This document shows, piece after piece, positions 20,284 to 62,056 of a stretch of 64,000 nucleotides of DNA. Positions within the stretch are counted from its first letter, which is position 1; each line of letters starts with the position of its first letter. A program made the position numbers and the translations under genes. The DNA lies in assembly GCA_946187555.1 (NCBI GenBank), contig CAMHQP010000002.1, positions 1 to 64,000 of the forward strand. Direction: 5' to 3'. Under the pieces are notes generated by a model. It ran no database searches, was not told where the DNA came from, and saw nothing but the letters and a program-made list of their open reading frames with translations. This DNA is from an uncultured Bacteroidales bacterium (GTDB lineage Bacteria; Bacteroidota; Bacteroidia; Bacteroidales; Paludibacteraceae).

Positions 20284-20772
20284 ATGGCTAAACATGTCGA
20301 TTTAAAACCCGTTCTGCCGATCTCAAGAACCGGCGGACACCCCCTCTTTGCCTCTTCCGAAGGAATTCTCTACTCCTTCCATCATGGCGCTTACCACCAA
20401 CTCCGACCCCAACACACTTCCGGGCCGAAGAGTAAAAAAAACGGTCGGCGAAAGCAGATCTATTACAAGATGTCTGACCGCTACGGCAACATCCTCGTCC
20501 ATCATGCCGTCGCCCTCGCTTTTATCGGACCTCGACCCGTCGAAAGGCTACCGCCATCCCCTAAGTTCCCCGCCGGACGACTGCATGCCTACGATTGTCA
20601 TCATCTCAACGGCATCACGACGGACAACCGTCCATCCAACCTCATCTGGCTCTCCGAAGCCGAGCATCGCCGTTTCGATGCCGCCCTCGCCAAAGGCCTC
20701 ATCCTCACCCGCGATCCCCGTCCCACCGACGACCTCATGCAATCCGACATGTCCCACCACATGGAGTGCTAA
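20284..20772 (+). CDS. HNH endonuclease-like protein
   Basis: 'HAYDCHHLNGITTDNRPSNLIWLSEAEHRRF' HNH-like motif. Confidence 0.7.
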   Translation: MAKHVDLKPVLPISRTGGHPLFASSEGILYSFHHGAYHQLRPQHTSGPKSKKNGRRKQIYYKMSDRYGNILVHHAVALAFIGPRPVERLPPSPKFPAGRLHAYDCHHLNGITTDNRPSNLIWLSEAEHRRFDAALAKGLILTRDPRPTDDLMQSDMSHHMEC

Positions 20773-20829
20773 AAAGATTCTTCGTTAATTTCGTCCAAAT
20801 TGTATTTGGACACCCAAATTTTTATCATT

Positions 20830-21216
20830 ATGAAAACTGAAAACTTAAAACTCCTGCGTGAATTGCGCACCCAAGAGAAAGCCCTCAAGGCTCGTATTGA
20901 CTCTATCTCCGACGCGGCTACCACCGAAGCCGTCGCCATTCTTGCCGCCGAAGGTAAAGACCGAGGCGAGTTCACCATCCCCGGAGTAGGCACTTTCCAA
21001 CTCCAGCGCACCGATGTCATTGACATGACCAACTACAACCGCTACAAAGGCGAGGATGCCATCCGCTGGCGGCAGAAGAACGAGCAGAAAGAGCAGAGCC
21101 GCAAGTACCAAGCCGCCCTGACGCGTGAGATGAAAGGTATCACCGACGGCTTCGTTGCCACGCACCCCGATTGGACTCCTGACGACATCAAACTCACGGT
21201 GAAGGTTATCGACTAA
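20830..21216 (+). CDS. Hypothetical protein, coiled N-terminus (128 aa)
   Basis: Complete ORF in the island gene series; ATG 20830. Confidence 0.55.
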   Translation: MKTENLKLLRELRTQEKALKARIDSISDAATTEAVAILAAEGKDRGEFTIPGVGTFQLQRTDVIDMTNYNRYKGEDAIRWRQKNEQKEQSRKYQAALTREMKGITDGFVATHPDWTPDDIKLTVKVID

Positions 21217-21305
21217 AAGAGAAAGAACCAAAGAGAAAAATAAAAATTGTTGTTTCTAGAACGTTATACTATGGTGTTTGAACAACAACAACTTTTTATA
21301 GATCT

Positions 21306-21620
21306 ATGTTTTTTGAAGATCTCATAAGAATGTTAAACACCCGACCGATCGTGCCGGGAAAAACAGCGGAGTGTCTGCGCCTTTGGAAGACACTTACTGC
21401 GCGGCAACAGCAACAAATCTACAACACAATACGCGACAAGTTGCAAGCCGGTAAGTTCGTTCACTATGACCCCGTCAAGGCCATTCAGGACAACATCCCC
21501 AAGGTGCAGATCATCTCTGCTGATGAGTACTACCGCCGCTATCATACGCAGACAAACCATGACGGTTGGGTGCGCACATTCCTTCCTGAAAAACAAAAAA
21601 CCATTTACGTAAAACAATAA
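21306..21620 (+). CDS. Hypothetical protein (104 aa)
   Basis: Complete ORF in series. Confidence 0.5.
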   Translation: MFFEDLIRMLNTRPIVPGKTAECLRLWKTLTARQQQQIYNTIRDKLQAGKFVHYDPVKAIQDNIPKVQIISADEYYRRYHTQTNHDGWVRTFLPEKQKTIYVKQ

Positions 21621-21633
21621 AACTACAATCACT

Positions 21634-21831
21634 ATGACCTTCGAAGTAAAATCCAAAGATGGAGTTATCTCCTCATTAAGCGGACGCTTCGGCGACTTTA
21701 TCTTCCGCACCTTCAAGTCCGGTAAGATCTTCGCTACCTACGCCCCGCGTCAACCCCGACCCATTCCCGAGTCATTATCGGTCCATCTTCGGGAGCAAAT
21801 TGAACTCCTCAACCTCGAAATTGTTGAATAA
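21634..21831 (+). CDS. Hypothetical small protein (65 aa), 'GRFGDFIFRTFKSGKIFATYAPR'
   Basis: Complete ORF; resembles small proteins seen in Bacteroidales phage-type gene series (recalled, not searched). Confidence 0.5.
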   Translation: MTFEVKSKDGVISSLSGRFGDFIFRTFKSGKIFATYAPRQPRPIPESLSVHLREQIELLNLEIVE

Positions 21832-21832
21832 T

Positions 21833-21997
21833 ATGGAAACAGAAATCATTATCTCCACCCAAGAAGTCCACGATCGACTCAACCACCGAGCTGGGCGCAA
21901 CATCCCCCTCAAGCACCTTGCCATCCTTATGGAATGTTTCGGACAACCCATCACAGAAGCCAACATCGAAGTCTTCCTTCGCTACGCTTGGGCATAA
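21833..21997 (+). CDS. Hypothetical small protein METEIIISTQEVHDRLNHRAGRNIPLKHLAILMECFGQPITEANIEVFLRYAWA
   Basis: Complete ORF directly after the 21634 gene. Confidence 0.45.
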   Translation: METEIIISTQEVHDRLNHRAGRNIPLKHLAILMECFGQPITEANIEVFLRYAWA

Positions 21998-22080
21998 TCT
22001 GGAGGACTTTTTGGAGAAAAATTTGCAAAACCGCCAAAATTGTGGGCATATTTGCATCGGATTTCAAAATTCACACAACT

Positions 22081-22269
22081 ATGCGACTCGATTTACAACT
22101 CATCGCCGCCTTTGTGCTCTCTATCGGCGGACTCATATTGCTCTTCTGCGGCATCTTCATCGACCCGCAAGGCCAGATCCACGAAACACTCCTCGTTGCC
22201 TTCGGCGAGACTGCCACCTTCGCAGGCGCGCTCTTCGGTATAGACTATGTTTACAAAAAACGCTCGTGA
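22081..22269 (+). CDS. Holin-like small membrane protein (62 aa)
   Basis: Two hydrophobic segments; 'LLVAFGETATFAGALFGIDYVYKKRS'; adjacent to a DUF5675-like gene. Confidence 0.5.
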   Translation: MRLDLQLIAAFVLSIGGLILLFCGIFIDPQGQIHETLLVAFGETATFAGALFGIDYVYKKRS

Positions 22270-22272
22270 CCT

Positions 22273-22689
22273 ATGTATTATAAGCTTATAAGAGAGATGC
22301 CCGAAGACAATGCAGTCCACGGCAAACTCTATCGCACCTCGCACTACGTCAACAAACGCACCGGGCTCCTCGTCGAGCGTCTGCACTACATCTGCGACAC
22401 CCTCGAAAACGCCGACTACCTCATCCCTGCACTCATCTACAAAGTGCAAGTCACGCAGTCCCCGCGTTTCAAACGCCTGCTGCCCATCCTCATCCAAGTC
22501 CCCGGTCGTTCCGGCATACGATTCCACCGCGGCTCTCTACCTGAGCACAGTAAAGGCTGTATCCTTATCTCTGCCAGCATGGAGCAATCTCTCACCGCTC
22601 GCTGGCTCGCAGAACAAACCGCTCACGAGGAGACCCGCCTCGAGATCTGTAACAACATTAACTATTACCGCAATGAAAACAGAATCTGA
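22273..22689 (+). CDS. DUF5675-like protein (phage lysis-module associated)
   Basis: 'SGIRFHRGSLPEHSKGCILISAS' resembles the DUF5675 core. Confidence 0.6.
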   Translation: MYYKLIREMPEDNAVHGKLYRTSHYVNKRTGLLVERLHYICDTLENADYLIPALIYKVQVTQSPRFKRLLPILIQVPGRSGIRFHRGSLPEHSKGCILISASMEQSLTARWLAEQTAHEETRLEICNNINYYRNENRI

Positions 22690-22780
22690 AGAACAATCTT
22701 GGACCAAAGTCCTCTTAGAGGTAATCATCAAAATCCTCACCCTTGGCTTCTACCACATCGAGAAGCACAAAAAGAACTAA
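22673..22780 (+). CDS. 35-aa membrane peptide MKTESEEQSWTKVLLEVIIKILTLGFYHIEKHKKN, 'smalltalk protein'-like
   Basis: Complete ORF overlapping the DUF5675-like 3' end; single amphipathic/hydrophobic helix. Confidence 0.45.
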   Translation: MKTESEEQSWTKVLLEVIIKILTLGFYHIEKHKKN

Positions 22781-22806
22781 TGTTTAACCCTTAAAACCAA
22801 CGCGAA

Positions 22807-23196
22807 ATGGCGAAAGCAACCTATGCCCCGATGTTTGAGACCGTCTCTGGCGCTCTGAACAAGATCGACAAGAAGTCTCCGCACGCGGCAGACCAAAAGA
22901 TGGTGTTGGCTACCCACCGTAAAGCACCCACCACCTCGCCTGATTGCTCTCGTGTCTATCTCCGCGGACTTAGCTCCGTTACTCGCTCCACGCCCGTAAC
23001 GGCTAAGGAAACCGGAATCCGCACCAAGTTTGCAGCGGTCTCAACCGCAGTAAGCGCACGTCTGCAAGACCCGACCAAGCAAGCAGCCGACCTCGCAGCC
23101 TTCAAGGCGCAAAAGGATGCAGCGAACGGCAAAAAGACCATGCGCTCCTATATCTGGAGCCTCGAGTCCGCCGCTTATGACCAAGCCAACGGCTAA
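22807..23196 (+). CDS. Hypothetical protein, paralog A (129 aa)
   Basis: Alignable with the 23368-23754 product: 'TRxxAPT.(S/N)P.C(S/T)R(V/I)Y(L/I)R', 'FxAVSTAV..R..D.TK.AAD.AAF..QKD', 'KKTM(R/K)(S/G)Y.W..E..AYDQ..G'. Confidence 0.75.
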   Translation: MAKATYAPMFETVSGALNKIDKKSPHAADQKMVLATHRKAPTTSPDCSRVYLRGLSSVTRSTPVTAKETGIRTKFAAVSTAVSARLQDPTKQAADLAAFKAQKDAANGKKTMRSYIWSLESAAYDQANG

Positions 23197-23270
23197 CAAT
23201 CATCAACCAACTAACTAACCCTATTTACTCACTTATTAACACCTCTCAAGTGGCTTAGAGGGCATCCTCC

Positions 23271-23303
23271 TAGCGAGGACTTCGTGAGTCCGAGCTAAGA
23301 GCG
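23271..23303 (+). ncRNA. Structured hairpin element copy A (TAGC-GA-GGACT-TCGTG-AGTCC-GA-GCTA + AAGAGCG)
   Basis: Shares 25 of 28 nt with 61878-61905; outer 4-bp stem differs by compensatory changes. Confidence 0.5.
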
Positions 23304-23322
23304 GGTGCATCCGAGTAGTCCC

Positions 23323-23343
23323 TACTAAAACAAAGTTTTAGTA
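23323..23343 (+). promoter_or_regulatory. Hairpin TACTAAAAC-AAA-GTTTTAGTA in leader of paralog B gene
   Basis: 9-bp perfect stem, 3-nt loop. Confidence 0.5.
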
Positions 23344-23367
23344 CATCTACGAGGATAGCCACACGCG

Positions 23368-23754
23368 ATGGGAAAAGTATCTTATTCGCCGGGTATTGAG
23401 TACGTACAAGGCTCCCTGGCAAAACCGAAGAAACAGGACGGTCACAATCACGGTGATTACCTCATCGGTACGCACCGCACCGCGCCGACCGAGAACCCCA
23501 ACTGCACCCGCATCTACATCCGTAAGGGTAACACCTACGGTCAGAACGTCAGCAAGTCGCAGGAAAGCATCGCAGCCCGTCTGCGTTTCAGTGCCGTCTC
23601 GACTGCGGTTAACACCCGCTCCAAAGACCTCACGAAGATCGCAGCCGACCGCGCAGCGTTCCTCGAGCAGAAGGATCTGCCGGGTGGCCGCAAGACCATG
23701 AAAGGTTACCTCTGGAAAGTAGAGGGTCAAGCCTACGACCAGCAACACGGTTAA
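23368..23754 (+). CDS. Hypothetical protein, paralog B (128 aa)
   Basis: See paralog A. Confidence 0.75.
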   Translation: MGKVSYSPGIEYVQGSLAKPKKQDGHNHGDYLIGTHRTAPTENPNCTRIYIRKGNTYGQNVSKSQESIAARLRFSAVSTAVNTRSKDLTKIAADRAAFLEQKDLPGGRKTMKGYLWKVEGQAYDQQHG

Positions 23755-23763
23755 TCTTCGAAA

Positions 23764-23791
23764 GGACACCTCCAGGAGGTGTTCTTTTTTT
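23764..23791 (+). terminator. Rho-independent terminator after paralog B
   Basis: ACACCTCC-A-GGAGGTGT followed by T-run. Confidence 0.8.
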
Positions 23792-23886
23792 ATGCGGTGT
23801 TCGTTTCACTCACGGCTGTTTTTATCCCCCGAAAAGAAAATATTGCATTTTTTTGCAAAATATTTGCTCAGAGCAAAATAATTTCG

Positions 23887-23894
23887 TACCTTTG
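23887..23894 (+). promoter_or_regulatory. Promoter motif TACCTTTG reading into the left inverted-repeat arm
   Basis: TAnnTTTG, 22 nt before the arm. Confidence 0.55.
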
Positions 23895-23916
23895 CAGCAA
23901 ATTTTGAAAATAAGTT

Positions 23917-24084
23917 TATGGAACGGGAGTTTATCGGTGTATCCGCTCTGCTCCCTCCGCTCCGCCTCTCTCGGCTCTCTCCGCCTTTCTTTGTATGCTC
24001 TCCGCTCGGCCTCCGCGCGCGGCAGCGCACATCTCCGCGCCACACTCCAGCCCGCACCGTCCCATCCCATATAGGGTCTCTCTC
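23917..24084. repeat. Left arm of 168-bp inverted repeat
   Basis: Reverse complement of 24686-24853, identical by eye. Confidence 0.92.
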
Positions 24085-24186
24085 TTTCATAAGGTCTTCT
24101 CTCCGTTCAGGGGCTGTGTTTAACTTGTATTGTACTGCCCACTTGGCGCCTACTTGTATTGTCAGCTTAGTCCTTTTCACTCAACC

Positions 24187-24241
24187 TGTATCCTATTTAT
24201 ACCCTGCTTGTACCTTACTTGCACCCCGCTTGTACCCTAAC
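24187..24241. repeat. Degenerate 11-bp tandem repeat (5 units)
   Basis: TGTATCCTATT TATACCCTGCT TGTACCTTACT TGCACCCCGCT TGTACCCTAAC. Confidence 0.6.
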
Positions 24242-24685
24242 AGCTTGTTCCTTTTAGTTTGTGTCTTTTTCTTTCTTCTTTGTTAAATACTGCGTATTTT
24301 TATCACCCGTCCTCTGGCAGGGCAAGTACCTGCGGTGCTGAAACGAATTTTGTTGTTTAAGAGGTATACCGGCGAGCCGGTTTTTTATATGCTGCGAAGA
24401 GAATACTATCAGCATTTTATCTGCTCAGATGCGAATTTTACACAACTATCACCTCAAATACCCACAACTACCAACCCAATATATGCGAATGCACAGCCCA
24501 CGCACACTCTGCGCGCACCTCACACATCCAATGCCATCCCGCGCATACCCGCGCACACCCTTACATAATATATCAGCGCACACCTGCGCACACAAGGTGC
24601 ACATTCCGCACATCCTTCGCACATAATAACTACTCGCGCGCCCTGCGGTCGCTCGAAAAAAAAAAGAGAGACCCTCTATTCCTTT

Positions 24686-50559: not shown

Positions 50560-51036
50560 TTATTGCGTGATTATTGTGTGATTAGTGCGTGATTTGGTCA
50601 TCTTGGCCCGCAGGCGAGCTGCCAATTCGGTCTGGCTGAGACGTTTGCTTGCGAACGTATCCGGTGTCCAAAGTGCAAAACGATTCAACATGCCGACAAA
50701 CAGCACGTCTTGTTGTGCACCGATGGTCTCAAGGTTCTTTTTCTGCAGCAAGATACGACCCTGCGCGTCGAGTTCCATATACTCGGCATCGGCCATGAAC
50801 TGCATAAGAATCAACTGGTCTTCCGGATTCCACTCGTCGAGCGTCTGACGCATCTGCTCCACTTTCTCGTTCCATACCTGCTCGGGGTAGAACATCAGGC
50901 ACTCGTTGTCCGTGTCACGGCGCATCACCATGAATTTCGAACCCGTCTCCGCCAATATCTTACGATAGGCAGCCGGCACGAAGATACGCCCTTTCTCATC
51001 CAAACGAGCTTCTATATTTCCTACAAATGTACCCAT
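50560..51036 (-). CDS. mraZ: Transcriptional regulator MraZ
   Basis: 'MGTFVGNIEARLDEKGRIFVPAAYRKIL'; start set at the internal Met. Confidence 0.93.
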   Translation of the reverse strand: MGTFVGNIEARLDEKGRIFVPAAYRKILAETGSKFMVMRRDTDNECLMFYPEQVWNEKVEQMRQTLDEWNPEDQLILMQFMADAEYMELDAQGRILLQKKNLETIGAQQDVLFVGMLNRFALWTPDTFASKRLSQTELAARLRAKMTKSRTNHTIITQ

Positions 51037-51063
51037 TTTCACCACTTTGTTTTGAAATCGGGT

Positions 51064-51071
51064 GCAAATAT
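51064..51071 (-). promoter_or_regulatory. Promoter motif TATATTTG for mraZ/dcw
   Basis: Minus strand GTATATTTGCACC ~28 nt upstream of the mraZ start. Confidence 0.6.
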
Positions 51072-51162
51072 ACAAAAAATATTTGAATTAACCCACATTT
51101 CCCCACAAAAAAATTTTTCAATTGTTTTATCAACAAGTTTTCAACAGATTTAGACATAAAAC

Positions 51163-61850: not shown

Positions 61851-61858
61851 TACTTTTG
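61851..61858 (+). promoter_or_regulatory. Promoter motif TACTTTTG for tRNA-Leu transcript
   Basis: TAnnTTTG ~112 nt upstream of the tRNA. Confidence 0.55.
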
Positions 61859-61872
61859 CAAAAATTTTTAAC

Positions 61873-61969
61873 TCGGGAGGACTTCGTGAGTCCGACCGAA
61901 GAGCGTAGAACACGACGTAGCGCTATTACGAGGGCTGTGCCCGAAGTCGCGCGAGTCGTAGTTTAAGCG
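61873..61969 (+). ncRNA. Structured leader upstream of tRNA-Leu containing hairpin element copy B and a second hairpin
   Basis: TCGG-GA-GGACT-TCGTG-AGTCC-GA-CCGA, then ACGAC..GCGC..GGGC-TGT-GCCC..GCGC..GTCGT. Confidence 0.5.
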
Positions 61970-61970
61970 A

Positions 61971-62052
61971 GCGGCATTGGCGGAATTGGTAGACGCGCCA
62001 GACTTAGGATCTGGTTCCTCACGGAGTGAAAGTTCGAGTCTTTTATGCCGCA
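61971..62052 (+). tRNA. tRNA-Leu (anticodon TAG)
   Basis: Acceptor GCGGCAT/ATGCCGC; anticodon arm CCAGA-CTTAGGA-TCTGG; long variable arm; T-loop TTCGAGT. Confidence 0.92.
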
Positions 62053-62056
62053 CATT

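Follow-up and report, generated by a model that had tools for sequence, protein, structure and literature searches.

BOX elements of Streptococcus pneumoniae are dispersed intergenic repeats with a modular A-B-C composition and a variable middle part, which are strongly base-paired as RNA, are sometimes co-transcribed with genes and have been proposed to be mobilised in trans (PMC3049150). They are the nearest known kind to the RNA family reported here, as both are modular, folded and dispersed, but BOX elements are not described as lying flush with tRNA, tmRNA or SRP RNA genes or with start codons, as members of this family do (PMC3049150). Moreover, the present family is distinguished from BOX by a GAGCG/GCGA terminal helix and tandem-GA modules of its own. 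REP/BIME repeats resemble it as hairpin repeats in the intergenic space of one lineage, whereas our element is longer, keeps internal loops and a pseudoknot by covariation, and is, in two of its classes, strictly sense-oriented with a fixed contact to gene starts. Small self-cleaving ribozymes (pistol, hammerhead, HDV-like) and 5' insulators of the RiboJ type are likewise compact, sometimes pseudoknotted 5'-leader RNAs that give defined 5' ends. Unlike these, the element has no Rfam match at permissive E-values and no conserved cleavage dinucleotide, and its strand order differs from that of HDV and pistol. The Rfam family 6S-Bacteroidales (Bacteroidales-1, RF01693) adjoins the element at one locus (L026) as the downstream gene and is not the element itself. 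A literature search with partial coverage yielded no description of an equivalent, and to our knowledge there is no precedent for one RNA architecture that leads stable RNAs as well as mRNAs and stops at their first functional nucleotide. The new part is this placement at the exact gene starts of both.

Two leaders of one modular family

The window, i.e. the whole analysed stretch of 64,000 nt from an uncultured Bacteroidales bacterium, contains a leader in front of a tRNA-Leu gene (copy B) and a second leader in front of a small ORF (copy A), which are both members of a dispersed, modular structured-RNA family. Its members begin with a variable 5' module; AGAGCG comes next, then a complex second hairpin and finally GCGA. 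The 5' module can be hairpin 1, which contains tandem G.A pairs, or a hairpin of the GGGGCCCC type; before mRNAs it is a pseudoknot together with hairpin 1. The constant part of the family is the AGAGCG-hairpin 2-GCGA domain. As GAGCG pairs with the GCGA end, the element is a closed domain. Two covariance models were used, R1 for the tRNA-leader domain (built from 11 sequences of AGAGCG-hairpin 2-GCGA) and R2 for the mRNA leaders. The features of the window are as follows, all on the plus strand:

61851-61859: -7 promoter box TACTTTTGC of the Bacteroidota TAnnTTTG type, read from the sequence
61872-61970: whole leader of copy B, abutting tRNA-Leu
61872-61899: hairpin 1 of copy B, CTCGG-GA-GGACT-TCGTG-AGTCC-GA-CCGA, with a tandem G.A internal loop (sequence and folding; outer and inner stems covary); 5' strands CTCGG 61872-61876, GA 61877-61878 and GGACT 61879-61883, 3' strands AGTCC 61889-61893, GA 61894-61895 and CCGA 61896-61899
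61901-61905: 5' strand GAGCG of the terminal helix, pairing with the 3' end of the element (AGCGA, 61966-61970)
61908-61964: hairpin 2 of copy B (covariation, R1 match), with GAAC/GTTT, bulged A61960, ACGAC/GTCGT (61912-61916/61955-61959), a GUA/GA internal loop, GCGC/GCGC (61920-61923/61949-61952) and the inner stem GGGC/GCCC (61932-61935/61939-61942)
61965-61970: 3' end AAGCGA, its final nucleotide touching the mature tRNA 5' end
61971-62053: tRNA-Leu, anticodon TAG (ARAGORN and Rfam RF00005)
23242-23368: whole element of copy A (R2 match, 143.5 bits)
23242-23261: P1 hairpin CCTCT/AGAGG, its loop GTGGCT (23250-23255) being the pseudoknot 5' strand (R2 match, covariation)
23262-23308: P3, GCATCC 23262-23267/GGGTGC 23303-23308, enclosing hairpin 1 (23270-23297; sequence, covariation)
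23309-23356: hairpin 2 variant of copy A (ATCC...GGAT; folding, covariation)
23357-23368: pseudoknot 3' strand AGCCAC (23357-23362) and GCGA end (23365-23368)
23368-23754: ORF for a small protein of unknown family, its start codon abutting copy A

In copy B, R1 matches 61896-61970 with 83.2 bits, and beyond the ACGAC stem four extra pairs (GAAC 61908-61911 with GTTT 61961-61964) extend hairpin 2 past the bulged A61960. Folding yields minimum free energy z-scores of -2.9 (copy B) and -4.1 (copy A). The -7 box TACTTTTGC is also found upstream of orthologous tRNA-Leu leaders. In copy A the GCGA end overlaps the A of the start codon. Re-reading the window bears out the sequence and the pairing that the first-pass annotation had given for the tRNA-Leu leader, as well as its two compensatory pair changes in the outer stem (TAGC/GCTA versus TCGG/CCGA). 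The helices are present, but the leader had been drawn too short, since it runs on to position 61970 against the tRNA at 61971. Similarly, the hairpin claimed for copy A exists but is only part of the longer element, and a recount of the shared nucleotides between 61878-61905 and 23276-23303 gives 26 of 28 instead of 25.

The small ORFs (about 100-160 aa) at 20284-24286 of the window form a cluster, in which the ORFs 22807-23196 and 23368-23754 have no Pfam or PHROG match; comparable small proteins lie behind several mRNA-type leaders of other genomes, e.g. at L006, L280, L281 and L301.

Spread and covariation of the family

The window has two occurrences of a 19-nt core, for which shuffles give an expectation of 0.00, and hairpin 1 has five copies in the genome (at most one mismatch to the pattern) whereas a reversed control pattern has none, which rules out a chance repeat. 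Nine exact-match stretches were found in GTDB genomes, all of them Bacteroidales or Paludibacteraceae MAGs, and the hairpin-1 pattern is present in 8 of 300 family genomes, all of one genus. R1 confirms this restriction: in 250 family genomes spanning 33 genera its matches are confined to one genus, where it hits 102 of 178 genomes (E <= 1e-3) with up to 23 matches per genome and 10 in this one. R2 matches 118 of the 178 genus genomes. Within its Bacteroidales family, this genus comprises rumen and gut MAGs, for which the names given by submitters include Paludibacteraceae.

The compensatory changes exceed those in shuffled and slid controls, and the family is a structured RNA. Already in the R1 seed alignment, 13 of 18 pairs have changes on both sides. 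Among 105 aligned R1 matches (94 distinct), 94.5% of the cells pair, double changes occur at 17 of 18 pairs and the covariation is 0.641 compared to 0.249 when shuffled and at most 0.15 when slid; G.U is found at one pair in 43 of 94. For R2, 67 distinct matches give 97.3% pairing cells, double changes at 32 of 37 pairs and a covariation of 0.513 (0.172 shuffled, at most 0.072 slid). Both large alignments are fitted to their models, but the unfitted seeds, of nine sequences in the case of R2, agree with them.

The terminal helix occurs as GAGCG/CGCGA (42), GAGCG/AGCGA (19), GAGTG/CACGA (4), GAGTG/CGTGA (1) and GAGCG/CGTGA (1), of which GAGTG/CACGA is a compensatory change. Furthermore, the base that opens the motif changes together with the one that closes the element in the tRNA class (n=105; G/A in 51, A/C in 31), which is compatible with a sheared-type rather than a Watson-Crick contact, the geometry being inferred. 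Members of the mRNA class have the additional 5' hairpin CCTCT/AGAGG, the loop of which is complementary to the strand just before the start codon. These pseudoknot strands pair as CTGGCT/AGCCAG, GTGGCT/AGCCAC, CGAGCT/AGCTCG, TGAACTA/TAGTTCA and others, with a mean complementarity of 6.35; exchanging the partners among the sequences lowers it to 5.20 (maximum 5.42). The module is seen before ORFs only. By inspection, the pseudoknot 3' strand of type-1 copies could instead pair with the base of hairpin 2, an alternative that is absent in tRNA copies.

The proposal of a dispersed element is thus borne out by the covariance-model search of this and related genomes, which brought up many further copies, and the covariation that had been suggested from only two copies is very strong in homologs. 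The symmetric GA/GA loop also holds, with GA on both sides in 33 of 42 examined hairpin-1 copies of the tRNA class and on the 3' side in 64 of 67 mRNA-leader copies. What the reading as a hairpin element missed is that hairpin 1 is just one interchangeable 5' module, so that it is supported but too narrow.

At gathering thresholds, an Rfam 15 scan of the window found the tRNA alone and no match was obtained on the element at the other loci scanned; permissive Rfam scans of the element gave nothing credible, and for hairpin 1 as a hammerhead or other known ribozyme there is no Rfam support.

Several variants were also observed. In L015, L017 and L025, one 3' strand ahead of the start codon could be paired either by the P1 loop or by the basal 5' strand of hairpin 2, so that the strands may switch. 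L072, L075, L079, L080 and L096 have a related leader, GGGGAGAGCGGAGGCACAAG...TTGCCGAACGCGA, with the same AGAGCG/GCGA ends and another hairpin 2. Tandem arrays of hairpin 1 with a period of 35-36 bp lie at L034:5661-5838 and L034:9987-10094 (genome G268, contig C9; five and three copies), followed by GTTCTTTGACRTATTGA, which resembles the boxA of rRNA leaders.

Contact with gene starts, gain and loss

The further copies lie in two contexts, before tRNA genes and before ORFs, as judged from sampled loci. Of 102 distinct R1 copies 47 belong to the hairpin-1 class, and 44 of these precede a tRNA, tmRNA, SRP RNA or 6S RNA; 38 tRNA/tmRNA, two SRP RNA and one 6S-like RNA were assigned by the classifier and three were added by inspection, namely the tRNAs of L140 and L201, which are truncated at contig ends, and one more SRP RNA (L150). 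Examples of tmRNA are L200 and L175, the SRP RNAs (L112, L114, L150) were identified by their sequence, and the 6S-like RNA at L026 has an Rfam E-value of 0.0012, below gathering. Within the counted range of -3 to +12, the offset to tRNA or tmRNA over all classes (n=46) is 0 in 34 copies, +1 in six, +2 in three, -1 in two and -2 in one. All 67 copies of the mRNA class are sense-oriented. Their offset to the ATG is 0 in 35, +1 in 26 and -1 in one, which covers all 62 copies with an assignable ORF; the other five have no long enough ORF in the fetched stretch. For the sense classes, this distribution of offsets rules out random insertion. The genes behind mRNA leaders include groEL, greA, acrB, rpmF, infB (judged by sequence) and those for an S30AE ribosome-associated protein, a GTPase, transketolase, an ATP-synthase-type subunit, PspC and DUF3127. 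At L029:1595-1967 (genome G167), the RNase P RNA gene begins no more than 3 nt behind a leader-bearing tRNA-Gly.

The leaders differ among relatives even at orthologous genes. Before tRNA-Leu, hairpin 1 and hairpin 2 are found in the window, hairpin 1 alone at L031, a GGGG-type module with hairpin 2 at L087 and L090, another type at L072, L079 and L080, and also a short plain leader. Many orthologous tRNA-Leu genes have no element, which excludes that it is part of the tRNA gene. At groEL, the element is present in G167 (L030) and G290 (L297) and as a variant in G256 (L015), and plain spacers are found in this genome and in the remaining orthologues read. Module swapping as well as gain and loss are also seen at a TPR gene (L007 versus L009). 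In genome G169, 7 of 30 sampled tRNA loci have an R1 match, of which six are upstream leaders 0-3 nt from the tRNA and the seventh (L235), on the other strand, adjoins the tRNA 3' end. In being multi-copy and present or absent at orthologous loci, the family behaves like a BOX-like or MITE dispersed repeat.

A third class, the GGGG-type, is often antisense to the neighbouring gene. 12 of its 50 copies end at or near a promoter -7 box, and others (L096, L121, L124, L194, L235) end a few nucleotides from a tRNA 3' end, as the hairpin-1 copy L156 does. Empty and filled sites at mraZ and at tRNA-Leu were compared by eye; at the two filled mraZ sites the antisense copy immediately follows TTTGCA, which puts it at or close to the start site. 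The antisense GGGG-type copies flush with promoters point to mobility. A phage or plasmid origin was rejected, since the exact core has no occurrence in IMG/VR contigs and BLAST gave no match to phage or plasmid records. The mraZ gene of this genome (window 50560-51075, minus strand) lacks the antisense element of its relatives L126 and L164.

Possible roles of the leader

The family is shown to be a modular, cis-acting structured RNA that makes up the 5' leader region at many genes within a single Bacteroidales genus. Its function is inferred without transcript or cleavage data. Our favoured but still tentative reading, for which the chances are somewhat below even, is that the leader defines the 5' end of the downstream RNA, preferably by cleavage at the boundary and alternatively or additionally by insulation, and that it spreads between genes. 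The RNA itself, or a host RNase recognising the fold, would cut at the 3' boundary of the folded domain, so that stable RNAs would obtain their mature 5' end and mRNAs would become leaderless; the leader may also, or instead, shield the product from misfolding with upstream sequence, and the cassette would move between genes. Boundary cleavage is proposed because a helix that reaches position -1 leaves no single-stranded leader on which the ribosome or RNase P could load in the ordinary way, and with housekeeping genes such as groEL, rpmF, greA and transketolase directly behind the element, expression must be permitted. As tRNA, tmRNA, SRP RNA, 6S RNA and AUG share only a functional start at the junction, this counts for 5'-end definition, and boundary cleavage would unify all sense contexts. 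Several points speak against cleavage. The antisense GGGG-type copies are not explained by a role in sense RNA, and the nucleotides at the putative cut are variable (the last one can be A, C, G or T), a variability around the cut in which the element differs from known self-cleaving ribozymes. Moreover, most sampled tRNA loci of G169 have no element, which is therefore dispensable, and the RNase P RNA in the genus (L029) means that tRNAs have an ordinary route. In the strongest form of the idea, the family would be a new class of RNA that makes a cut, or brings it about, exactly at its own 3' end whatever sequence lies downstream. It would be a natural, portable 5'-end maker for tRNAs, tmRNA, SRP RNA, 6S RNA and leaderless mRNAs, with no need for RNase P or for initiation of the Shine-Dalgarno type; this is held to be rather unlikely.

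The main rival is a passive insulator or stabiliser, which we regard as unlikely but not to be dismissed: a self-contained leader would block misfolding between leader and product and protect 5' ends, while RNase P trims the tRNAs and the ribosome opens the leader or loads at the AUG. The domain being closed up to -1 would fit this, as would the many tRNA units that manage without the element and the unrelated hairpin leaders of the genus that also stop at the tRNA 5' end (L222, L233, L226, L218, L223). However, a passive hairpin would not need the non-helical motifs that are strongly conserved in all copies (GAGCG/GCGA, GUA/GA, tandem GA), and a position flush at the AUG is poor for standard initiation. 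Ranked second, and a little less likely again, is a primarily selfish MITE-like or BOX-like mobile element, which would keep its structure because transposition requires the DNA or RNA hairpin and would direct its insertion at promoter bubbles or the ends of RNAs, with only secondary effects on genes. Presence and absence at orthologous groEL, mraZ and tRNA-Leu sites, the up to 23 matches per genome, the antisense copies that abut promoters or the 3' ends of tRNAs and the hairpin-1 arrays of G268 all speak for it. Against it speak the strict sense orientation (44 of 47 in the hairpin-1 class, 67 of 67 in the mRNA class), G.U pairs of the kind usual in RNA (at one pair, 43 of 94) and a module choice that follows the kind of gene, with the pseudoknot only before ORFs.

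It is quite improbable that the family is a riboswitch-like or protein-binding regulatory leader (for an RNase, a ribosomal protein or a chaperone) that tunes a set of co-regulated translation and stress genes. The pseudoknot does set a switchable strand just before the AUG, which in type-1 copies can alternatively pair with the hairpin 2 base, and the served genes include tRNAs, tmRNA, SRP RNA, infB, rpmF and groEL; yet the membership differs among close species and includes the unrelated acrB, transketolase and PspC, and tRNA and mRNA copies revealed no shared alternative fold with a terminator or a sequestered start. An intrinsic terminator or attenuator is not favoured, as the gene comes right behind the element without a T-run. 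REP-like or attC-like roles as a DNA hairpin, considered solely by inspection, are likewise not favoured. If the leader sets 5' ends, Bacteroidota would have a maturation pathway for RNA and a way of starting translation that are both new, and the engineering of gut bacteria would gain an insulator part that is ready to use. A mobile element would be equally unusual, as its targeting of RNA 5' ends is accurate almost to the nucleotide.

The five G169 tRNA leaders with unrelated hairpins (L222, L233, L218, L223, L226), which likewise stop at the tRNA 5' end, have sequences such as GGCGGAGGCC...TCCG, ...CACGATCT and GCGGCAGTGCTGCTCGCGAC and possibly represent additional leader families.
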